Source: Anadara kagoshimensis
Lineage: Eukaryota; Mollusca; Bivalvia; Arcoida; Arcidae
DNA: 64,000 bases
Direction: 5' to 3'
Assembly (NCBI GenBank): GCA_021292105.1
Contig: CM037870.1
Span: 61,902,167 to 61,966,166, forward strand
A model generated the notes under the pieces. The model was not told the DNA's origin and made no database searches. It worked only from the letters and a program-made list of their open reading frames with translations. Positions within the stretch are counted from its first letter, which is position 1, and every line of letters begins with the position of its first letter. Shown here in pieces: positions 3,749 to 38,560 of this stretch. Made by a program: the position numbers and the translations under genes.

Positions 3749-4110
3749 TTGGAGTGGATTCCCAGTCATGATTCTGATATCCAGACTGTCAGTTCTGGGA
3801 TGGGGGAGTGGAGTGATGTACTGTTATGTCCCAGTCATGATTCTGATATCCAGACTGTCAGTTCTGGGATGGGGGAGTGGAGTGATGTACTGTTATGTCC
3901 CAGTCATGATTCTGATATCCAGACTGTCAGTTCTGGGATGGGGGAGTGGAGTGATGTACTGTTATGTCCCAGTCATGATTCTGATATCCAGACTGTCAGT
4001 TCTGGGATGGGGGAGTGGAGTGATGTAGTGTTATGCCTAACTCATTATTCCTATATCCAGGCTATCAGTTCTAGGATGGGTGAGTGCAGTGCAGTGATGA
4101 AGTTCAGTTA
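3749..4110. repeat. 69-bp tandem array derived from the SINE-A 3' end
   Basis: Four nearly identical monomers start near 3763, 3832, 3901 and 3970, followed by one or two decayed copies up to about 4110. The unit reads GGAGTGGAGTGATGTA, CCCAGTCATGATTCTGA, CCAGACTGTCAGTTCTGG. These phrases are the minus-strand 3' end of SINE-A (compare GGAGTGGAGTAATGG, CCAGTCAAGATTCTTTC, CAGTCAGTTCTGGG elsewhere). Because 69 is a multiple of three and the unit lacks stops in two frames, the array yields meaningless open frames. Confidence 0.93.
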
Positions 4111-4244
4111 CATAGAGATATGGTGGATTGAAGTTAAATTGTGGTGTTTACATCCATAGTTTGGATTCATTCCCTTATATTAAGACTGACAATTCTAGAA
4201 TGGTGGAATGTAGTGAAGAAATGGTGCTTTATGCTTCTAGTCAA

Positions 4245-5700
4245 GATTTTTTCACTTACATTGGTCAGTTCTGGAATTATGGAATGAGGTGGGGTCGAGT
4301 ATTGTGGTTTCATACCCCAGTCTAGATTCTTTCACTTACATTGGTCAGTTCTGGAATTATGGAATGAGGTGGGGTCGAGTATTATGGTTTCATACCCCAG
4401 TCTAGGTTCTTTCACTTACATTGGTCAGTTCTGGAATTATGGAATGAGGTGGGGTCGAGTATTATGGTTTCATACCCCAGTCTAGATTCTTTCACTTACA
4501 TTGGTCAGTTCTGGAATTATTTTATGAGGTGGGGTCGAGTATTATGGTTTCATACCCCAGTCTAGATTCTTTCACTTACATTGGTCAGTTCTGGAATTAT
4601 GGAATGAGGTGGGGTCGAGTATTGTGGTTTCATACCCCAGTCTAGATTCTTTCACTTACATTGGTCAGTTCTGGAATTATGGAATGAGGTGGGGTCGAGT
4701 ATTGTGGTTTCATACCCCAGTCTAGATTCTTTCACTTACATTGGTCAGTTCTGGAATTATGGAATGAGGTGGGGTCGAGTATTGTGGTTTCATACCCCAG
4801 TCTAGATTCTTTCACTTACATTAGTCAGTTCTGGAATTATGGAATGAGGTGGGGTCGAGTATTGTGGTTTCATACCCCAGTCTAGATTCTTTCACTTACA
4901 TTGGTCAGTTCTGGAATTATGGAATGAGGTGGGGTCGAGTATTGTGGTTTCATACCCCAGTCTAGATTCTTTCACTTACATTGGTCAGTTCTGGAATTAT
5001 GGAATGAGGTGGGGTCGAGTATTATGGTTTCATACCCCAGTCTAGATTCTTTCACTTACATTGGTCAGTTCTGGAATTATGGAATGAGGTGGGGTCGAGT
5101 ATTATGGTTTCATACCCCAGTCTAGATTCTTTCACTTACATTGGTCAGTTCTGGAATTATGGAATGAGGTGGGGTCGAGTATTATGGTTTCATACCCCAG
5201 TCTAGATTCTTTCACTTACATTGGTCAGTTCTGGAATTATGGAATGAGGTGGGGTCGAGTATTGTGGTTTCATACCCCAGTCTAGATTCTTTCACTTACA
5301 TTGGTCAGTTCTGGAATTATGGAATGAGGTGGGGTCGAGTATTATGGTTTCATACCCCAGTCTAGATTCTTTCACTTACATTGGTCAGTTCTGGAATTAT
5401 GGAATGAGGTGGGGTCGAGTATTATGGTTTCATACCCCAGTCTAGATTCTTTCACTTACATTGGTCAGTTCTGGAATTATGGAATGAGGTGGGGTCGAGT
5501 ATTGTGGTTTCATACCCCAGTCTAGATTCTTTCACTTACATTGGTCAGTTCTGGAATTATGGAATGAGGTGGGGTCGAGTATTGTGGTTTCATACCCCAG
5601 TCTAGATTCTTTCACTTACATTGGTCAGTTCTGGAATTATTTTATGAGGTGGGGTCGAGTATTATGGTTTCATACCCCAGTCTAGATTCTTTCACTTACA
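4245..5700. repeat. 80-bp tandem array derived from the SINE-A 3' end, about 18 copies
   Basis: The unit TTCTTTCACTTACATTGG, TCAGTTCTGGAATTATGG, AATGAGGTGGGGTCGAG, TTTCATACCCCAGTCTAG repeats at exactly 80 bp without indels. The differences are few: ATTATGG against ATTGTGG, single changes such as TCTAGGTTC, and a TTTA for GGAA block near 4520 and again near 5640, 14 units apart. The last monomer continues directly into the rest of a minus-strand SINE-A (5690-5855), so the array grew from that SINE's tail. Confidence 0.97.
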
Positions 5701-5855
5701 TTGAGGCAGTCATTTCTGGGATGATGGAAAAAAATACTAACCTCTGGCAAGCAAACCAGTAAAGTTTTATCACACTAGGATCTACTTTAGTGGGAGTCAG
5801 TGCTAAAGAGAGAGGTTCTGTGGTGAATAACACCTTTAATGTCGGATTTATCTAG
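5690..5855 (-). mobile_element. SINE-A remainder, parent copy of the 80-bp array
   Basis: After the last monomer the sequence runs TTCACTTACATTGAGGCAGTC, then TTTCTGGGATGATGG, a CTCTGGCAAG phrase, TTTTATCACACTAGGATCT, GTGGGAGTCAGTGC and AGAGAGAGGTTCTGTG. This is the SINE-A order read on the minus strand, from core to tRNA-like head. The head itself is too decayed to show an A box. Confidence 0.65.
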
Positions 5856-16329: not shown

Positions 16330-16420
16330 GGGTTGTGCAGTTGTTCAGTGGTTAAAGCATCAGCCTTTAAACCCAAGGGATCTTATCACTGTGGGTTTGA
16401 TCCTGGTAGACTGCAAGTGA
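16330..16420 (+). mobile_element. tRNA-like SINE head, family uncertain
   Basis: TTGTTCAGTGGTTAAAGCAT resembles an A box (type II tRNA style) and GTGGGTTTGATCCTGG a B box at 16391-16406. No recognised SINE body follows. It is a tRNA-derived relic rather than a working tRNA gene because the arms do not pair into a cloverleaf. Confidence 0.45.
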
Positions 16421-17251
16421 AAAAAAACTTTATTGCTTTATGTGGTCTGAAGTGTTTATCCGGAATATTGGACAAGTGCATGAGAACATGTACTTTTAAA
16501 GATCACCACAAATGCCACTAGTTACAAAGGAAAAAAAAATGTAAAAAACTCATGCAGCATATAAGCATAAAGGTTAATGTACAAACTCAATCCAAAAACT
16601 TGGGAAAATTAAGAAAAACACATAACTTCCATTGGGGAAGTGAGGCTGCATGCTCTGGAATGGCAAGCACCTCATTAGCTTGATAATAAGTGTCATAAAT
16701 AGCTGAAAAATTGCTGACATTAAAACAACCAATCAACTAACTGACATGGCATGATTTACAGCCCTTTCAGTGAATTTTGAAGTAGAAGACTAAATTCTTA
16801 AAGTAGGCAGCAAGTTTGGAGTATTGTGTATTGCAAACTGAATTCAGAAAAGTGTGGAAGTAGGAGACAAACTTAATTCAAATATCAAACAAGTAGCAGA
16901 TAACTTTTGTCACCTTGCTGGCTTTATTGACACCCCTGGGATAATTGTTAGGCATGTGAAAGTTCTGAAAGTGAAAGTTAAGCCCACAACTTACGACATG
17001 CCTACTGTTTCTTGTCAGTTAATACTAGTTGTAATTACCTTCATTAGATCTCAGTTGGAATAGTTGTTGATATATCCTTACTTCTAACAGAATATTCCTG
17101 GCAGTACATCAACTCACAATCTGTTAAAAGGATAATTTATTTGAAAGATTGTTTTACGCAGTTTTCCTCTTGTTTCTATATATTATCTATACCCGTGTCA
17201 AGCAAGTGCTTTTTTGCACAACCACTTGATAAGTTGATATTGAATACATGT

Positions 17252-19564: not shown

Positions 19565-20195
19565 GTTGTCAGTAAAACCTGCTATAGTAGCAATCTCTAT
19601 ATAAAGACCACCTGGCCTCGGTTTCACAATCATTCCTTAGCTAAGATTTGACTTTACTTAAATTTAGCATATTTGGTAATTTCTTTTTGAAACTACTGAT
19701 GAATACTATTGTCAAAAATAAATGCAGATGTTTTAATCTAGAAATAATCTAAGATTGACACCTTAAATTCCTGATTAATCTTCAAAATTAACAAATTAAA
19801 AGGATTGAAATTTTTCAAAATTCAAGTTAACGAAACTCTTAGCTAAGAAATGATTGTGAAACCGGGGCCTGCCTATGCAGTAAAACCTGCTAAAGTGACC
19901 ACCTCTATATAAAGACCACCTGTCTATACAGTAAAACCTGCTAAAGTGACCACCTGTATATAAAGACCACCTGTCTATACAGTAAAACCTGCTAAAGTGA
20001 CACCTCTATATAAAGACCACCTGTCTATACAGTAAAACCTGCTAAAGTGACCACCTCTATATAAAGACCACCTGTCTATACAGTAAAACCTGCTAAAGTG
20101 ACCACCTCCATATAAAGACCACCTGTCTATACAGTAAAACCTGCTAAAGTGACCACCTCTATATAACAACCACCTTGTATACAGTAAAACCTACT
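19565..20195. repeat. 51-bp tandem array of a CAGTAAAACCT unit
   Basis: A solo copy lies near 19569. Tandem copies follow from 19878 with starts near 19880, 19931, 19982, 20032, 20083 and 20134. The unit reads GTAAAACCTGCTAAAG, TGACCACCTCTATATAAAG, ACCACCTGTCTATACA. Single diverged copies of the same motif stand elsewhere, for example near 6893, and inverted near 54735 and 56925, so the array grew from a dispersed short repeat. Confidence 0.9.
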
Positions 20196-25235: not shown

Positions 25236-25593
25236 ATTCATATAGGATGATCCACCCAATATTTGGATTTGCAGTTAATATATAAACATTGGTTGTATGT
25301 ATCGTTTTCACCAATGTAGAGAAAATCAACACCTGTGAACCCTGTACATGAATGTACTGGTTCATAATAAATATTCAAATTAAAGGTTGAACTCCAAATG
25401 TTCATGTCTTTGAGGTTACTTTAATTTTGAGTTGTATAATTACATATATGTCTGCTGTATTGTGTGCTTAAGGCTCAATATAAGTACTTTAACATACTAT
25501 TCTTTATATCAATATTTGAGAAGCTACTAGTTATATTAACCAGAGGTAGACTATGTACTCGTATAAGTTATATTGAAAAATGAAGGATTTGAG

Positions 25594-25697
25594 TGGAGTG
25601 GAGTAGTGATGTTTAATGCCCCAGTCAAGATTTTTTCACTTATATCCCAGCTGTCAGTTCTTGGATAGTTGAGGAAACCAGAATGCCCAGAAAAATT
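25594..25697 (-). mobile_element. SINE-A 3' part next to the 75-bp array
   Basis: GAGTGGAGTAGTGATG, TTTAATGCCCCAGTCAAG, TTTTTTCACTTATATCCC, AGCTGTCAGTTCTTGG and GAGGAAACCAGAATGCCC read as SINE-A on the minus strand. It stops 40 bp before the array. Confidence 0.8.
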
Positions 25698-25737
25698 TGA
25701 TATATTGCTGCCTGTTAGTAATATTGAAATATTAAGG

Positions 25738-27695
25738 ATTGGAGTGGAGTGGAGTAATGGTGTTTAATGCCTCAGTCAAGATTCTATCACTCATATCGAA
25801 ACAGTCAGCTCTTGGAAGGTGGAGTGGAGTAATGGTGTTTAATGCCTCAGTCAAGATTCTATCACTCATATCGAAACAGTCAGCTCTTGGAAGGTGGAGT
25901 GGAGTAATGGTGTTTAATGCCTCAGTCAGATTCTATCACTCATATCGAAACAGTCAGCTCTTGGAAGGTGGAGTGGAGTAATGGGTTTAATGCCTCAGTC
26001 AAGATTCTATCACTCATATCGAAACAGTCAGCTCTTGGAAGGTGGAGTGGAGTAATGGTGTTTAATGCCTCAGTCAAGATTCTATCACTCATATCGAAAC
26101 AGTCAGCTCTTGGAAGGTGGAGTGGAGTAATGGTGTTTAATGCCTCAGTCAAGATTCTATCACTCATATCGAAACAGTCAGCTCTTGGAAGGGGAGTGGA
26201 GTAATGGTGTTTAATGCCTCAGTCAAGATTCTATCACTCATATCGAAACAGTCAGCTCTTGGAAGGTGGAGTGGAGTAATGGTGTTTAATGCCTCAGTCA
26301 AGATTCTATCACTCATATCGAAACAGTCAGCTCTTGGAAGGTGGAGTGGAGTAATGGTGTTTAACGCCCCAGTCAAGATTCTATCACTCATATCGAAACA
26401 GTCAGCTCTTGGAAGGTGGAGTGGAGTAATGGTGTTTAATGCCTCAGTCAAGATTCTATCACTCATATAGAAACAGTCAGCTCTTGGAAGGTGGAGTGGA
26501 GTAATGGTGTTTAATGCCTCAGTCAAGATTCTATCACTCATATAGAAACAGTCAGCTCTTGGAAGGTGGAGTGGAGTAATGGTGTTTAATGCCTCAGTCA
26601 AGATTCTATCACTCATATAGAAACAGTCAGCTCTTGGAAGGTGGAGTGGAGTAATGGTGTTTAATGCCTCAGTCAAGATTCTATCACTCATATAGAAACA
26701 GTCAGCTCTTGGAAGGTGGAGTGGAGTAATGGTGTTTAATGCCTCAGTCAAGATTCTATCACTCATATAGAAACAGTCAGCTCTTGGAAGGTGGAGTGGA
26801 GTAATGGTGTTTAATGCCTCAGTCAAGATTCTATCACTCATATAGAAACAGTCAGCTCTTGGAAGGTGGAGTGGAGTAATGGTGTTTAATGCCTCAGTCA
26901 AGATTCTATCACTCATATAGAAACAGTCAGCTCTTGGAAGGTGGAGTGGAGTAATGGTGTTTAACGCCTCAGTCAAGATTCTATCACTCATATAGAAACA
27001 GTCAGCTCTTGGAAGGTGGAGTGGAGTAATGGTGTTTAACGCCTCAGTCAAGATTCTATCACTCATATAGAAACAGTCAGCTCTTGGAAGGTGGAGTGGA
27101 GTAATGGTGTTTAATGCCTCAGTCAAGATTCTATCACTCATATAGAAACAGTCAGCTCTTGGAAGGTGGAGTGGAGTAATGGTGTTTAATGCCTCAGTCA
27201 AGATTCTATCACTCATATAGAAACAGTCAGCTCTTGGAAGGTGGAGTGGAGTAATGGTGTTTAATGCCTCAGTCAAGATTCTATCACTCATATAGAAACA
27301 GTCAGCTCTTGGAAGGTGGAGTGGAGTAATGGTGTTTAATGCCTCAGTCAAGATTCTATCACTCATATAGAAACAGTCAGCTCTTGGAAGGTGGAGTGGA
27401 GTAATGGTGTTTAATGCCTCAGTCAAGATTCTATCACTCATATAGAAACAGTCAGCTCTTGGAAGGTGGAGTGGAGTAATGGTGTTTAAGCCTCAGTCAA
27501 GATTCTATCACTCATATAGAAACAGTCAGCTCTTGGAAGGTGGAGTGGAGTAATGGTGTTTAACGCCTCAGTCAAGATTCTATCACTCATATAGAAACAG
27601 TCAGCTCTTGGAAGGTGGAGTGAGTAATGGTGTTTAACGCCTCAGTCAAGATTCTATCACTCATATAGAGGTGGTCAGTTTACGAAAGGTGGAGT
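25738..27695. repeat. 75-bp tandem array derived from the SINE-A 3' end, about 26 copies
   Basis: The unit GGAGTGGAGTAATGGTG, TTTAATGCCTCAGTCAAG, ATTCTATCACTCATAT, GAAACAGTCAGCTCTTGG is the minus-strand SINE-A 3' end. The first nine or so copies read CATATCGAAAC and the rest CATATAGAAAC, with a sharp border near 26465. Single-base indels are confined to copies near the two ends (about 25926, 25985, 26192, 27489 and 27622), while the middle is almost uniform. The array leads straight into the remaining SINE-A at 27690. The 75-bp unit has no stop in several frames, which creates long but meaningless open frames on both strands. Confidence 0.97.
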
Positions 27696-27932
27696 AGAGT
27701 ATTGGTGTTTAACGCCATAGTCAAGATTCTTTTATTTATATGGAGGCAGCGGCAGTTTGTAGATGGTGGAAGAAACTGGAGTGTCAGGAGAAAACCATCA
27801 ACCTTCTTCAGGTGAACTGACAAACATTCTCACACTAAGAGCTGCCCCAAATGGGATTCGAAATTAGATGGTGAAAGACACTGTGATCCATAAATGTGCC
27901 TTTTATGCTTCTCAACCACCAAGGCTCCATTG
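27690..27932 (-). mobile_element. SINE-A, parent copy of the 75-bp array
   Basis: It runs on from the last monomer: AACGCCATAGTCAAGATTC, GATGGTGGAAGAAACTGG, AGTGTCAGGAGAAAACC, GGTGAACTGACAAACATTC, CACACTAAGAGCTGCC, AAATGGGATTCGAAATTAG (B box) and CTCAACCACCAAGGCTCC (A box side). This is a complete SINE-A from tail to tRNA-like head. Confidence 0.88.
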
Positions 27933-29002
27933 AAAAATTAATTAAGGGCTAGTGTACAAGCAAGTACTGTACCGTGAGATAGGTTTGCATATTTTAAAAT
28001 GCTTTCATTCCATTGCATCAAATGAGAATTTAATTGGTATATGAGTTATAAATCAGAATGAATATTGCTGCCTGATGATCCCTAGTACTACCTGTTGTTG
28101 ATTTGCAATTTAAAATTCAAAATAAAACTTAATTCAGTATTAAATTAATTTTTTTTCTAGAATTGGTTAAAGTTATATTTAAATTACCAACACTTACTGG
28201 CACCATTACTTATATATGTATATATAATTTCACATATGAATTTTGGATTTCTTTTATACAATTTTGCAAAATTTAATTTGGATGAAAAAAGTGAAATTTA
28301 ATTTTCATATCACTCTTATGCCTAATGATATGGGAAAAACTAATTACTACATATTTAGTTAAAACGATTATTAAAAAATAAATGAAACATATAATTTCAA
28401 GAACCCAATTTTAAACACTTATGAGTTTTACAAAAATTAAATCTAAATTAGTTTTCCCAAAATAAGTAGTTCTTGAAATTGAAAATTTTATTTCAAGCTT
28501 AAAAAACACAATGGTTGCATTTATTTAACTGTAAAACTCAAAAGACATAAAATTGATGGCAGTTATTTTAGTTTTGTTTTATAAACAAATTGCAAAACGT
28601 AGATAAAATTCCTTACTTTGGTTGATAACATTCCGTGATTTTTTGCAACATTTTACTTGAAACAAACGCATGTATTCTACAGATGCATGTGCAGTATGAC
28701 ACACCAGGCAGTCAAGAACCTACAAATCAATCTTTATTATGTATAGCTGGAAAGAAACCATTGATGTCAAAACAGATGAAATTGAACATGTATAATGCCA
28801 GCTTGGCAAAAGAGAAATGGTCTGCTGTTTTGAAAATGACTTCTGTATGCCCATGTTGTAACTCTGTTATCCATGTGATCATGAGATGGGAATTCTTATA
28901 ACTGGGTCCCGCTTTCTCTTCTATAACACTGTCTTCCACCTTCGTTTAGCAATATGCTTGAGGCTTTTATATAGATTTGAACTTCATTTTATTTTGATGG
29001 AC

Positions 29003-29305
29003 CCCTATTGTAGCCCAGTTGGTAGAATGCTTTGTATTCACTTTGAATGTGGGAGGTTAGGGTTCAAACCCCTGGCAGTTCTGACCAAGACTTGAAAAAA
29101 AGGTAGTGACTGTTTTTCACCAACACTCTGCATTTAGTATTGAAAGTCACAGGGTCGCTCAAAAAGAGACCTTAGAAACTGATGCTCTGTGTCACAATGG
29201 GCATTATATGCTAATGAGCCATCATTGCACATTGCTATGAGCATATTGCAAAGATAAAAAAAATTCTTCAACTTTACCTACAGCTGGTGACATCAAAATA
29301 ATGTA
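29003..29305 (+). mobile_element. SINE-B, near full length
   Basis: GTAGCCCAGTTGGTAGAATG is an A-box region like that of tRNA-Ala, and TTAGGGTTCAAACCCCTGG is the B box. The body follows: TTCTGACCAAGACTTGAAA, GTAGTGACTG, AAAGTCACAGGGTCGC, GTCACAATGGGCATTATA, GCACATTGCTATGAGC and TACAGCTGGTGACATC. The expected 3' tail phrase is decayed. Confidence 0.85.
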
Positions 29306-30019
29306 ATTTGTATGGGAAACGTCAATTCATGTAATACCATGTCCAATGAAAATGATTGTTCCACACAATTATTGTGGGGCATCACATGGTAGTCTATCAA
29401 ACTCCCAATTTTCATTAGACAGTCAACATTTTCTACAATTTCAAAAAATTAAACCAGAAACATTTTCTTTGTTTACATAGAACATATAAATAAAAATCAC
29501 CTGGGCCATTTTGTTTACTGCATTACATTAACTTTTAACATTTTTATGCAAATTTTTTTGTAAAACATCAAATTTTAATTTGCTTGAAAACGTGACAGTG
29601 TTGTAAAGTGTTGATGTTTTTAGGTTCACACATGGTATGTTGTTGTTTTTTGTAAAGTTTGTTATTCTCTGTTTGATGGGATAAAATGCTGGTTTGATGG
29701 TATAAAACGTTGAGATGTATCTATCGCTGTTGTGGACCATTAATCTTTACATTTATATATAAATATCAAAAGATGAGAAACAGAGAGATGTTTTATTGAA
29801 AGTAGAGAGTGCACTTGAATGAATTTACATTTATATTGAAAAAAAGTTCCCCAACTAGACTAAACAAGGGATAAATTTATTTGATTTTTATTTTGATCAG
29901 CTGAAATTGAAAACAGTCTGTGTCGTACTTATGATACATTAAAACATGGTTTTCCTGTGATCTACTTTTTAGTATTTCAGTATTTTTTCCAAAATTTTAC
30001 AAAGGAAAGGATAAAAGGA

Positions 30020-31625
30020 AATGTTTTTCTTCAGTGTACAATGTGATACCCCTGAACATTTGTTTGCCAAATTTATTTGTATTTCTATTGAATTCCAGAT
30101 CCAGATGTTTTCTCTGGAAAAAAATATATTACTAGAAATGATATCTTTGAAATCTGGCAGCGTACAATGTGATCATTACCTTGTAATGTTTGTGTGGGAT
30201 ATTTTGGAGAATTCCAAGAATAGCATCGTTTTTTATGGGAAACCCTTGACTTGTGATTTCATATCCAATGGAAAAAATAGGGTTCCTCTCTGTACCATGT
30301 GATCAACACCCCTTAACGTTTGTGCGGAACATTTTGAAAAATGTTTACGTCCAGAATTCCCGAAATAACATCATTTGTGTGTGTGTGTGGGGGGGGGGGG
30401 GGGGGGGGGGGGAGAATGGGAACTGATATGATTCCATATCCAATGGCAATAATATTTCTGTACAAACATTAGGTGATATTACAGCGGTGAACCCCATTGT
30501 TACCCACAAACATTGTGAGGTATCATGGTGGTGAACTCCATTGTTCAACACAAACACATTAGCTAGTTTAAATGAGTATGTGCCAGACCCTATTCCATAG
30601 CCTATTGGATATCAATAGCATTCATTACAGAATGCATTTTACATTAAGATATGTGTTTTTCTAGGTTTTCATCCTTTTGTAAAACAAAATGAAGAATCTT
30701 CCCTTTGTTATATTTGTTTAAAAACCAAAAAACTAGAGAATCTTTTGCCTTTTTGACAGATTCATGATCATGAAGTAGGGTAAAGAATTGGGAATAATAA
30801 TAGTACACTTTCATCTAATGTGTCCCATCTGTTTCAACATTATGTTCTTTTTCCAAAAGTACGGGAAATTTTGTGCTAGCACAAAAATGAGTGATGTCAT
30901 CAGTTTTGATGTGCAAGCTTACACTCATCAGAACAGATATAGTTGCATGAGTATGCAGAGCTTTGTGTTAAAACATATTTATTTTGGTTATAAAAGGCAA
31001 GTATGTATGTTTTGTTAAAAATTTTGTAAAGTATCTGAAAAAGTGATTGCAAAGGTAATTGTAAAAAAAGAATGGTAGATACATGCTAATCAGACCTTTC
31101 AAAATGATTTCAAATGGGATTATCCACTGTACCACATGATACCCTCTAACGTTTGTGTGGAACACCTATTTCCAATGGATATGGCATTGCATAAGATGAT
31201 GTTTTCCTTTAAAAATTATGTTTTTCCAGAATTAAGGTTTTCCAAAACATTCCGCACAAATGTTTGGAGGTATTGATCACGTTATACAGTGCAAACCCCA
31301 TTGGATATTTTTCAGCTTTCCTATTGTTTCAATAGTTGAACTGCCTGGAGCCAAATTAGGTTCAAAGGATATGACGTATCTCCTGAAGAGTTGGATTAAC
31401 TAGGTTACAAAAAATTCAGTATCCCGCAAAATAATATGAAAAATGTTTTATTGGTATGGCCCTTTTGCAATGGATTCACGACAAATTACGGATTCAACTA
31501 TTATTGAGAAATAGAACAGCACAAGTTCATACGCTTTTTGTAAATTGCATGCTAGAGTTCACTATGCCATGATATATATGTAGTGCATTTATTTCCATTG
31601 GATAAGGAATTGTATAAGATAAAGT
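30020..31625. repeat. Cluster of diverged repeats in both orientations, hosting a later insertion
   Basis: Phrases recur at irregular spacing on both strands: GTACAATGTGATACCCC or GTACCATGTGATCAACAC, AACGTTTGTGTGGAAC, TTTCCAATGGATATGG, and the reverse set AAATGTTTGGAGGTATTG, GATCACGTTATACAG. Copies lie near 30040, 30165, 30290, 31130, 31240 and 31590, and again beyond the Helentron-like element near 34000-34140. The family is unclassified and carries no coding region. Confidence 0.6.
30377..30412 (+). repeat. (GT)n followed by a run of 24 G
   Basis: Alternating GT from 30377 to 30388 passes directly into an uninterrupted G run at 30389-30412. Homopolymers of this length are hard to sequence, so the exact number is doubtful. 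Confidence 0.85.
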
Positions 31626-31626
31626 T

Positions 31627-33968
31627 TTTTAGCTCACCTGACCGAAGGTCATGTGAGCTTATGGCATAGCGCAGCGTGTGTATGTGCGTGTGTGCGTGTG
31701 TGCGTGTGTGCGTGTGTGCGTGTGTGCGTCGTTAACACCTATTTTCGACTTCTCCTCTGAAACTACTGGACAGTTTTTGATGAAACTTTGTCAGAAGTAT
31801 ATATGGGTCGGTGCAATTCAGATTTGTTCGTGGCGTTGCTATGGCTACCATAACTAGGTCAAGGTGACATAGGGGTGCAAAAATCTTTAAAAATCTTCTT
31901 CTCTCCGAAAGTACTGATTGGAGAAAAAATCTGATGTGATATTTGGCTTCTCTAGGGTCTTAAGTCTATAGTTTGTTCATTTTGTGAAATTCGGATAAAA
32001 AATAGGTTACGCGTTTTTGCGTTTAATTTTGAAAAAAATCGTAAAATAGCTTCAAATTGTTATAACTTGACTATTTGACCAGATAATGACATGGGGTTTT
32101 CAATTTTGACATCTTCTTGTTAGTATCTTCAAAATGAGGTCAAGGTCGATTGTGAAGGTCGTGACCTAATTTTTTTTACCTCTGATTATAATTATTATCT
32201 CGAAAACTATAAACTTTTTGTATAGGCATGTATATTAGAATGTTGTAGGTATCTATACAACGATCATTTTGATGTATAGAAAAAGGTCATGGGTTCAAAG
32301 GTCAAGGTCACAGATGCGAAACAATACCGAAATGGTTAATTATCTCGAAAACTATAAACATTTTGTATAGGCATGTATATTAGAATGTTGTAGGTATTGA
32401 TACAACGATCATTTTGATGTATAAAAAAAGGTCTTGTGTTCAAAGGTCAAGGTCACAGATGTGAAACAATACCTAAATGGTTAATTATCTCGAAAACTAT
32501 AAACTTTTTGTATAGGCATGTATATTAGAATGTTGTAGGTATGATACAATGATCATTTTGATGTATAGAAAAAGGTCATGGGTTCAAAGGTCAAGGTCAC
32601 GGATGTGAAACAATACTGAAATGGTTAAATTTCTCGAAAACTATAAACTTTTTGTATAGGCATGTACATTAGAATGTTGTAGGTATTGATACAACGATCA
32701 TTTTGATGTATAGAAAAAGGTCATGGGTTCAAAGGTCAAGGTCACAGATGCAAAACAATACCGAAATGGTTAATTATTTTGAAAACTATAAACATTTTGT
32801 ATAGGCATATATATTAGAATGTTGTAGGTATCGATACAACGATCATTTTGATGTCTAGAAAAAGGTCATGGGTTCAAAGGTCAAGGTCACAGATGCGAAA
32901 CAATACCGAAATGGTTAATTATCTCGAAAACTATAAACATTTTGTATAGGCATGTATATTAGAATGTTGTAGGTATTGACACAGCAATCATTTCGATGTA
33001 TAGAAAAAGGTCATGGGTTCAAGGGTCAAGGTCACAGATGTGAAACAATACTGAAATGGTTAATTATCTAAAAAACTATAAACTTTTTGTATAGGCATGT
33101 ATATTAGAATGTTGTAGGTATTGATACAACGATCATTTTGATGTATAGAAAAAGGTCATGGGTTCAAAGGTCAAGGTAACAGATGCGAAACAATACCAAA
33201 ATGGTTAATTATCTCAAAAACTATAAACTTTTTGTATAGGCATATATATTAGAATGTTGTAGGTATTGATACAACGATCATTTTGATGTATAGAAAAAGG
33301 TCATGAGTTCAAAGGTCAAGGTCACAGATGCAAAACAATATCGAAATGGTTAATTATCTCGAAAACTATAAACTTTTTGTATAGGCATGCATATTAGAAT
33401 GTTGTAGGTATTGATACAACAATCATTTTGATATATAGAAAAAGGTTATGGGTTCTAAGGTCAAGGTCACATATGCGAAACAATACGGAAATGTTTAATT
33501 ATCTCGAAAACTATAAACTTTTTGTTTAGGCATGTATATTAGAATGTTGTAGGTATCGATACAACGATCATTTTGGTGTATAGAAAAAGGACATGGGTTC
33601 AAAGGTCAAGGTCACAGATGTGAAACAATACCGAAATGGTTAATTATCTCGAAAACTATAAACTTTTTGTATAGGAATGTATATTAGAATGTTGTAGGTA
33701 TCAATACAAGAATCATTTTGATGTATAGAAAAAGGTCATGGGTTCAAAGGTCAAGGTCACAGATGCAAAACACTACCAAAATGGTTAATTATCTCGAATA
33801 CTATAAATTTTTTGTATAGGCATGTATATTAGAATGTTGTAGGTATTGATACATTGGTTATCATGATGTAAAGAAAAAAGTCTTGGGGTTTAGTATTTAT
33901 GTGTTCGTTAAATCTATCAGCTAGCCATTAGTTATCAGGTGAGCGTATCAGGCCCATGGGCCTCTTGT
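31627..33968 (+). mobile_element. Helentron-like non-autonomous element 1 with tandem core
   Basis: The left end is T-rich followed by AGCTCACCTGACC-GAA-GGTCATGTGAGCT, a hairpin. The right end has TCAGGTGAGC (33935-33944), complementary to the left GCTCACCTGA, then a perfect palindrome AGGCCCATGGGCCT at 33950-33963 and CTTGT. A (GTGTGC)n tract (31675-31727) follows the left end, then a unique stretch (ACTTCTCCTCTGAAACTACT, GGTTACGCGTTTTTGCG), then about 12 core repeats of ~145 bp. Subterminal inverted repeats, an internal tandem core, a 3' palindrome and T-rich target fit non-autonomous Helentrons (HINE). No Rep/helicase gene is present. Confidence 0.7.
32187..33870 (+). repeat. ~145-bp core repeats of Helentron-like element 1, about 12 copies
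   Basis: Each monomer reads GGTTAATTATCTCGAAAAC, TATAAACTTTTTGTATAGG, CATGTATATTAGAATG, TTGTAGGTATTGATACAACG, ATCATTTTGATGTATAG, GGTCATGGGTTCAAAGG, TCAAGGTCACAGATGCG. Starts lie near 32334, 32479, 32623 and 32768 (spacing 144-145). Monomers differ by roughly one base in twenty. Eleven of them carry the GTTCAAAGGTCAAGGTCA phrase or a one-base variant. Confidence 0.93.
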
Positions 33969-34472
33969 TAATGAAAATTCTAGTTCTGGGAATTTGTGAC
34001 AGTGACATAAAGAATTTCCAAAACAATAATCCACACAAATGTTCAGGAATATTGATCACATAATACACAGGGGAAACCAATTTGTGATGGAACATGTTAG
34101 ATGGCAATAGATACACAATTGTTTGGAGTTTAGATCATGTTGTACTCTAGTGAATTTCATTTAGATCAAATCTAGACTTCTGAAGACTGGGTGAGCTACC
34201 AAAGGTCCTACAAAAGAAAATAAATTTATCAAACACAGCAAAATTTATATAAAACTTTAATAAAGATTTTATACCAAATAACCCTCAACTCTTTTATTAT
34301 AATTTTGATAGATATTGATTAAGTCTTTATATAAACCAGATCTCTTAAGTTTTTCAGGTGTTCCAAAAAATCAAATTTCAATACACAAATGTAAGTTACA
34401 GAATAGGTATGAACTATTAAGTAATTTGTATTTAAGTAATAACCTTTGATTTTTACATCTACCTACATCTGT

Positions 34473-36660: not shown

Positions 36661-38560
36661 TTTTAGCTCACCTGAGCCAAAAGGCTCAGATGAGCTATTG
36701 CAATCTATCACCGTCCGTCGTCCGTCGTCCGTCGTCCGTCGTTCGTCGTGCGTCGTCCGTCGTCCGTCGTGCGTCGTGTGTAAACTTTACATTTTAATCT
36801 TCTCCTCCAAAACTACTGGGCCATATTTCATGAAACTCTGTGACTATCATGCCTAGGTAACAGCCTTTCAAAATTGTGTTCGGGGTTTGGCCACGCCCAA
36901 CAAGATGGCCGCTGTTACTAAAAATAGCAAATAGACAAAAAAATCTTCTTCTCTGAAACCAAAAGGTGCAGGCAAATTTTGATTGGATATTTGGATTCAG
37001 CATACCTGGGAACATTAAAATTGTGTTTTTCATGAAAATTAGACAAAAAATGGGTTACGCGTTTTTTGCGTAAAAGTACGTAATTTTTAAGATGAGACAT
37101 TTATTGTTATAACTTCATAACGGCTGAAGATAATTGTATGGAGTTTTCACTGTTGATCTTGTCTTGCAATTTTCTTTCAATTGATGTCAAGGTCGAAGGT
37201 CAAGGTCATGTCCCAGTTTTGACCTTTGATAAAAAATGCTATTTTTTAACATTTCTTGTGATAATGGTAGGATTTTCAGTTATTTGTAGGTATTGACATG
37301 ACGATCATTTTGATACATAGATCAGGGTCATGGGTTCAAAGGTCAAGGTCACAGCTGTCCAAGAATACCAAAATAGTTAATTATCTGCAAAACTATGAAT
37401 TTTTTGTATAGGCATGTATATCAGAATATTGTAGGTAATGGCACAATGGTCATTTTGATATATGAATAAAGGTCATGGGTTCAAAGGTCAAGGTCACAGA
37501 TGTAAACAAGTACTGAAATGGTTAATTATCTCAAAAACTATAAACTTTTTGTATAGGCATGTATATTGGAATATTGTAGGTATTGGCCTAACAATCATTT
37601 TGATATAAGAATGAAGGTCATAGGTTCAAAGGTCAAGGTCAAAGATGCGAAGGGATACTTAAATGGTTAATTATCTCAAAAACTATAAACTTTTTGTATA
37701 GGCATGTATATTGGAATATTGTAGGTATTGGCCTAATGATCATTTCGATATATGAATGAAGGTCATAGGTTCAAAGGTCAAGGTCATAGATGCAAATGAA
37801 TACTTAAAAGGTTAATTATTTCAAAAACTATTAACTTTTTGTATAGGCATGTATATTGGAATATTGTAGGTATTGGCCTAATGATCATTTTGATATATGA
37901 ATGAAGGTCATAGGTTCAAAGGTCAAGGTCATAGCTGCGAACGAATATGTAAAAGGTTAATTATCTCAGAAACTATAAACTTTTTGGATAGGCATGTATA
38001 TTAGAATATTGTAGGCATTTGCACAAGATCATTTTGATATATGAATGAAGTTCATAGGTTCAAAGGTCAAGGTCATAGATGCAAACTACTACTTAAATGG
38101 TTAATTATCTCAGAAACTATAAACTTTTTGTATAGGCATGTATTTTAGAATATTGTAGGTATTGGCCTATCGATCATTTTGATATATGAATGAAGGTTAT
38201 AGGTTCAAAGGTCAAGGTCATAGATGCAAATGAATACTTCAATGGTTAATTATCTCAAAAACTATAAACTCTTTGTATAGGCATGTATATTGGAATATTG
38301 TAGGTATTAACCTAATGCACATTTTAAAATACAGATGTTTTAGCTGTTTATATTATATTGTAGCTAGACTTTAAATATGTTATATATAGCATCCTTATAT
38401 AATAATTATTATAATTAATTTGCAAGAATACTTGCATATTATTGGCCCTTACTGCTGAAAATTTTGATATTCTCTTTTATTAATGTCATTGACCATTGAA
38501 CCTCTGCATAAGATATGTACTCTTCCTCAGGTGAGCGTAAAGGCCCATGGGCCTCTTGTT
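36661..38560 (+). mobile_element. Helentron-like non-autonomous element 2 with tandem core
   Basis: The left end is TTTTAGCTCACCTGAGCC-AAAA-GGCTCAGATGAGCT (hairpin from 36665). The right end has TCAGGTGAGC (38527-38536), the palindrome AGGCCCATGGGCCT (38541-38554) and CTTGTT. A (CGTCGTC)-type microsatellite (36713-36778) occupies the place where element 1 has (GTGTGC)n. It is followed by the same unique stretch (ATCTTCTCCTCCAAAACTAC, GGTTACGCGTTTTTTGCG) and about seven or eight ~146-bp core repeats. It is a sister subfamily of element 1 about 2.7 kb away, in the same orientation. No protein is encoded. Confidence 0.72.
37240..38335 (+). repeat. ~146-bp core repeats of Helentron-like element 2
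   Basis: The monomer reads GGTTAATTATCTCAAAAAC, TATAAACTTTTTGTATAGG, CATGTATATTGGAATATTG, GGCCTAATGATCATTTTG, GAATGAAGGTCATAGG, TTCAAAGGTCAAGGTCA. Seven units carry GTTCAAAGGTCAAGGTCA without change (near 37334, 37479, 37623, 37768, 37914, 38058 and 38202). Diagnostic differences from element 1 (TTGGAATATTG for TTAGAATGTTG, GAATGAAGG for GAAAAAGG) show that the two arrays were homogenised separately. Confidence 0.92.

Follow-up and report, generated by a model that had tools for sequence, protein, structure and literature searches.

The 75-bp tandem array in the window, the stretch of 64,000 nucleotides that was analysed, is best explained as a SINE-derived satellite array, a reading to which we give a probability of roughly 0.6. 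An old duplication at the short word CTCCA in the tail of a SINE-A element would have been followed by exchange or slippage, which multiplied and homogenised the 75-bp units. The array is contiguous with a SINE-A (S2), and a homologous copy of the locus carries the SINEs without any array. The features are compiled in Table 1.

Table 1. Features of the 75-bp array locus and of the other SINE-A tail arrays in the window
Feature	Position	Strand	Evidence and remarks
69-bp SINE-A tail array	3760-4091	-	TRF, SINE match; same join
80-bp SINE-A tail array	4239-5703	-	TRF, SINE match; same join; SINE body attached (5650-5830)
Possible target-site duplications	25573-25592, similar to 25723-25743 and 27929-27947		Weakly supported; scores vs 2000 random pairs
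S1, tail (3' part) of first SINE-A	25594-25695	-	BLAST vs SINE 27690-27932; alignment to L002; SINE consensus vs L002
Spacer, 48 bp	25696-25743		Aligned to L002, which has the S1 head and inter-SINE sequence there
75-bp array, 26 units	25744-27693	-	TRF, unit table and counts
Transitional unit adjoining the SINE	about 27615-27693	-	Unit table; first third of older type, remainder of array type
S2, SINE-A contiguous with the array	27690-27932	-	Head 27932, tail 27690; consensus 11-225 at 80%

TRF called the tandem array at 25744-27730 with a period of 75, 26.6 copies, 98% matches and a score of 3736. The unit comprised SINE-A positions 146-220 only, on the minus strand, and matched the SINE consensus (146-225) at 81% with an E value of 2e-18. 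Counted in the register of the SINE, 26 units were present besides S2's own tail. Along the minus strand, the head of S2 (27932) was followed by its body, its tail (27690), the 26 units, the 48-bp spacer and the tail of S1 (25695-25594). The initial annotation had described a head-to-tail array of about 26 SINE-A 3' ends with the SINE still attached, and a partial SINE-A in the same direction to its left; all of this was borne out. It had also taken S2's own tail for the last monomer. In position and register this tail is indeed the first unit, but its sequence is diverged, with just 76% identity to the array consensus.

Two types of unit stood in blocks. The 16 units on the SINE side carried TTTCTATATG, the nine on the far side carried TTTCGATATG, and a single transitional unit adjoining the SINE was graded towards the attached S2 tail in the unit table. 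Judged from this pattern, the graded borders and the blocks of unit types are the trace expected of local unequal exchange. The stretch 26190-29432 was identical to the assembly, which is the window's own source and hence no independent confirmation. An open frame of 425 amino acids on the minus strand (26164-27441) runs through the array; it can remain open since the unit length of 75 is divisible by 3, and it is likely to be meaningless. Pfam DUF7535 scored with an E value of 1.7e-14 for this frame, but no single stretch passed, and five further long frames in the window matched no Pfam family.

SINE-A elements are dispersed and about 240 bp long; they have a tRNA-like head, and their tail ends in short repeats (ACTCCACTCCA). 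Their consensus was taken as a rough majority over 15 copies. S2 contains the A-box-like TGGTTGAGAAG and a degenerate B-box-like stretch that is readable in the sequence. When five copies were scanned for pol III boxes, both the A and the B box were exact in one (L007), two (L003 and S2) had an A-box match in the head only, w58543 had a box match only outside the head, and w40526 had none. Rfam gave no tRNA match for the heads of L003, L007 and L004 at E values up to 5, and neither Rfam nor ARAGORN gave one within the window; the heads may have decayed beyond recognition by tRNA models. The label SINE was based on the boxes, the size, the copy number and the common 3' end. The AT-rich flanks of the two SINEs were compared as possible target-site duplications. 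In the window 7, 30 and 28 of 2000 random pairs scored equally high, the comparison with seven such pairs including SINE bases, and in the homologous copy 19, 21 and 25 of 2000 did so.

This homologous copy was found when the 1.115-Gb assembly was queried with the SINE, which gave a 92% match (L002) 830 kb further along the window's own contig. The counterpart of the window lies at about G000:C14:62735095-62793700 (62.735-62.794 Mb), with main blocks of 91-99% identity; the gaps fall mainly on arrays and on 36.6-38.6 kb. At 200 kb to the right, a probe still matched the counterpart at 99%; at 200 kb to the left, a probe had no counterpart. The second copy may be a large duplication or else the other haplotype, left unpurged in the assembly, and it serves as a homologous locus under either origin. 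At L002 both SINEs stood in tandem, the first with an internal deletion and its head present (67% to the consensus), the second at 79% to the consensus. The window had 26 of the 75-bp tail units and the homologous copy none. Since L002 has the tandem pair and no array, such a pair does not suffice to produce one. A homologous locus bearing the array but no SINE-A, named by the initial annotation as a refutation of its reading, did not turn up; the single homologous locus identified had both SINEs and no array. As a genome query, the window sequence 25688-25752 found no other place, which does not prove absence.

The flanks of the two copies differed at 8 of 1268 aligned bases on the left and 8 of 1502 on the right. 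In S1 the tail differed at 11 of 55 bases and the rest at 2 of 47; in S2 the values were 9 of 41 for the tail and 9 of 190 for body and head. Because the divergence is concentrated in the SINE tails as compared with the flanks, one of the two copies must have had its tails overwritten or exchanged. Other arrays also differed in size between window and counterpart: the 51-bp array had 6.4 and 24.9 copies, the 55-bp array 8.0 and 2.0, the 68-bp array 3.0 and 2.0, the 69-bp tail array 4.8 and 5.7, and the 69-bp array at the window start, where it is cut, 10.9 and 3.1, respectively. At the corresponding places of the counterpart, neither the 80-bp tail array (18.3 copies) nor the two 145-bp arrays (11.7 and 7.2) were called. 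Conversely, a 51-bp array with 3.3 copies, at 16401-16570 of the counterpart, had no call in the window. The 78-bp and 24/48-bp arrays were equal in both.

The position at which one unit joins the next was the same at all of the examined loci with SINE-A tail arrays. In the consensus CTCCACC stands at position 146, and CTCCA recurs 75 bases further on at the 3' end (221), so that the join leads from position 220 back to 146 at the common CTCCA. Fourteen array loci were compared: the window 75-bp array, the window 80- and 69-bp arrays taken as one locus (WIN80), and L028-L039. The step from consensus 214-225 to 142-150 was found in 180 of 184 neighbouring unit pairs, in at least one pair at each of the 14 loci, and in all 26 neighbouring pairs of the window 75-bp array. 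The four non-conforming pairs, two in WIN80 and one each in L037 and L033, were alignment breaks or overlaps. The L loci had been found with a 75-bp dimer probe, which favours the observed join, and were the better-scoring ones among the matches listed. A check free of the probe was made on TRF arrays of the window with a period of at least 20; three of these resembled the SINE over more than 24 bases, and all three used the join. A point against a duplication at this word is that the consensus has a direct repeat of only 5 bp there, a length reached by 0.7% of all possible joins and by 2.1% of possible joins that end close to the 3' end. An array at the other repeated word, CACCATT (149 and 208), was considered and dropped, as the 61-bp period of L058 proved to be the same join with an inner deletion.

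Genome-wide, an exact 17-mer of the tail occurred 1408 times and continued 460 times into the 21-mer of the join; the reversed-pattern control gave 0 for both. The 460 joins are not 460 events, because many are repeated within arrays or dispersed copies. For contig C1, the 100 places listed gave 41 tail loci by hand count (places up to 3 kb apart merged), 8 of them with the exact join. Many exact SINE tails, often 79 bp apart, were spread over 6.6 kb at C1:29389137-29395721, apparently a longer tail array whose period deviates slightly. Among 20 further join loci sampled, nine (L057, L059, L060 and L063-L068) were copies of one dispersed sequence that bears an old tail array and is 94.5-99.6% alike over some 720 bases. 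L050 and L051 formed a pair, as did L061 and L062, the latter two without a second tail. L052, L053 and L056 showed a SINE body, one full tail and then a second tail filling most of 75 bases. Together with L040-L043, the nine copies make up two dispersed sets (93-99.6% alike) that carry degenerate old SINE-tail arrays as passengers. No match above 300 bp was seen between the two sets in the stretches compared; they could be parts of one element.

A whole or partial SINE body stood at the 5' end of the array at 8 of the 14 loci (window 75, window 80, L031, L032 and L034-L037), with an alignment break of 10-12 bases before the array at WIN80 and L037. No locus had a SINE body joined to the 3' side of its array, and six (L028, L029, L030, L033, L038 and L039) had none joined to the array at all. 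L033 and L035 had other same-direction SINE pieces some hundred bases off the array.

The age of the first duplication was approached through 11 loci, a non-random sample, at which a first tail attached to a SINE body is followed by a second one; L058 was dropped, and derived bases were counted against the consensus. In bases 1-19 first and second tails had 5 derived bases in common (3.9 expected, p 0.32) and differed by 21%, compared with 24% between loci. In bases 20-75 they had 30 in common (12.8 expected, 0 of 5000 permutations) and differed by 14%, compared with 21% between loci; 19 of these 30 came from L052, L034, L035 and WIN80. The tails are thus kin within a locus in bases 20-75, and no such kinship was seen in bases 1-19. 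Our preferred reading is an old duplication of the tail at or soon after insertion, two times that are indistinguishable here, with later exchange rendering the 3' parts similar.

A tree was built on 75 columns from 114 rows, made up of a subsample of units together with 12 single tails; 55 of its 93 inner forks were open. Units clustered by locus, with 38 label changes as compared with a mean of 92 in shuffles. The nine sampled 80-bp units formed one branch (SH-aLRT 98), and six of the nine sampled rows of the 75-bp locus, the core units, formed another (SH-aLRT 95). Outside the core branch stood the tail of S1, the transitional unit and the attached tail. The core units grouped with the C10 arrays L028 and L029 (SH-aLRT 88) and were 86-88% identical to L028, L029, L032 and L033, compared with 76% to the attached tail. 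Because L028 (7.9 units) and L029 (4.5 units) interleave in the tree and have flanks in common, they are copies of one array locus. Identity within arrays was 0.81-0.98 with no clear trend over 4-40 units at 13 loci, the WIN80 figure pooling two arrays. An independent origin of the 75-bp array had been proposed. Identities and tree agree with an expansion separate from that of the 80-bp array, but the window arrays have one join in common, and that they derive from their own attached tails cannot be shown.

According to the preferred reading, the last 75 bases of the SINE would have been duplicated at the common CTCCA at or soon after insertion, giving a two-tailed SINE. Later unequal exchange or slippage between 75-bp units, suggested by the pattern of units, would have multiplied and homogenised them, and the unit adjoining the SINE body and the border tails would have been left as old, diverged relics. 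The last step, a change in unit number, is visible as the difference between 26 units and none in the homologous copies. The array behaves like a minisatellite, and no function is inferred. The initial annotation had instead let two tandem SINE tails seed the expansion by unequal exchange, as in a double-insertion model. The two same-direction SINEs are truly in tandem, most clearly in the copy without the array, and their flanks are weakly alike. Exchange between them would, however, yield a unit of some 230 bp including inter-SINE sequence, whereas the observed unit has neither this sequence nor a SINE head. Moreover, the join is present at L031, L032, L034 and L036, where no second same-direction SINE was found in the short flanks examined, and L002 has the pair without an array. 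Such seeding is very unlikely.

Alternatively, slippage or unequal exchange could have taken place recently at the CTCCA of this very SINE, and independently at each locus, without an old dimer. This would agree with the single join at a direct repeat at 14 of 14 loci and with the absence of the array from the homologous copy. It is nonetheless improbable, as the units differ by 24% from the attached tail while the flanks of the two copies diverge by 0.5%, and bases 1-19 of first and second tails lack locus-specific kinship. The closeness of the core units to other arrays, in particular L028 and L029, and the concentration of divergence in the SINE tails would fit an import. Ectopic exchange or conversion, acting between the tails of SINEs at different loci, could have brought in the array as a whole or its units. 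Among the 40 candidates scored (of 963), however, identity outside the window reached 87% at most, so that no donor came to light, and the transitional unit is graded towards the attached tail; we consider an import unlikely. As to the common join, one two-tailed source SINE can account for it as well. It is possible, if rather doubtful, that new SINE-A insertions often carry two tails from the outset, either from a two-tailed source gene or by slippage in reverse transcription, in which the growing strand at the internal CTCCAC would slip back onto the CTCCA-rich 3' end. If this were true, each such insertion would be a ready-made satellite seed, and a library of these 75-bp seeds, all with the same join, would lie scattered through the genome.

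The array on the preferred reading matches a known route from mobile to satellite DNA, the SINE-derived satellites (sSats) of squamates, whose tandem units come from part of a SINE (Vassetzky et al. 2023, PMC10702118). The squamate sSats resemble the window array in that their terminal unit is longer and extends through the SINE as far as its terminus, and in having one unit at many loci with locus-specific homogenisation; some units, as in sSat3Gja1, include the SINE 3' end, as does the window unit (PMC10702118). Greater homogeneity at longer loci is a further trait of sSats (PMC10702118); the 13 array loci compared here showed no clear trend with unit number. Genome and SINE are different, the window unit is the last 75 bases, and an array-less homologue is at hand (PMC10702118). 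A subtelomeric preference is described for squamate sSats (PMC10702118). Of two array loci placed here, the window array is 10.8 Mb away from the end of its contig, and L039 is no more than about 16 kb away from a contig end. Among molluscs, PcH-Sat of the limpet Patella caerulea likewise has a SINE-like segment, but its unit is 179 bp long with a Nin-SINE-like segment of 118 bp, unlike the 75-bp unit (PMC11121367). It makes up about 10% of the limpet genome and is mainly pericentromeric, and its abstract does not mention an attached SINE (PMC11121367). Within a limited literature collection, no other report of SINE-tail arrays of this kind in molluscs was seen, and four pieces (14-15 bases) of the SINE-A tail matched no paper. 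Double insertions of transposable elements are described as a substrate for satellites (McGurk and Barbash 2018, as summarised in PMC9659126). According to this summary they resemble L002 in that a pair of elements comes to stand in tandem at nearly the same target, but the resulting repeat includes the junction between elements, whereas the window unit lies wholly inside the tail of one element (PMC9659126).

With its attached SINE, graded borders, homogenised core and array-less homologue, the locus is a clear case of a dispersed element turning into a satellite. Given the single join at the examined array loci, the timing and mechanism of the first duplication become testable by a survey of SINE copies.

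Some further repeats of the region were noted. The 51-bp array at 19868-20192 has a stretch of 24 bases (87.5%) in common with SINE positions 157-180, which may be chance or an old relic. The 145-bp arrays (32194-33887 and 37284-38325) contain AAGGTCA words and are missing where the C14 counterpart aligns with them; the first of them sits in an element at about 31625-33969 that the counterpart lacks. The right flank of the SINE locus from 28149 (28149-29400) has a 99% copy at C19:35438506-35439757. This copy is uninformative on the array because it has window sequence only from 28149 onward, beside a repeat element; the 3.3 kb beyond that element are unlike the window, save for the element's own end. 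The neighbouring C19 element itself has 145-bp arrays that resemble window 31625-33969.
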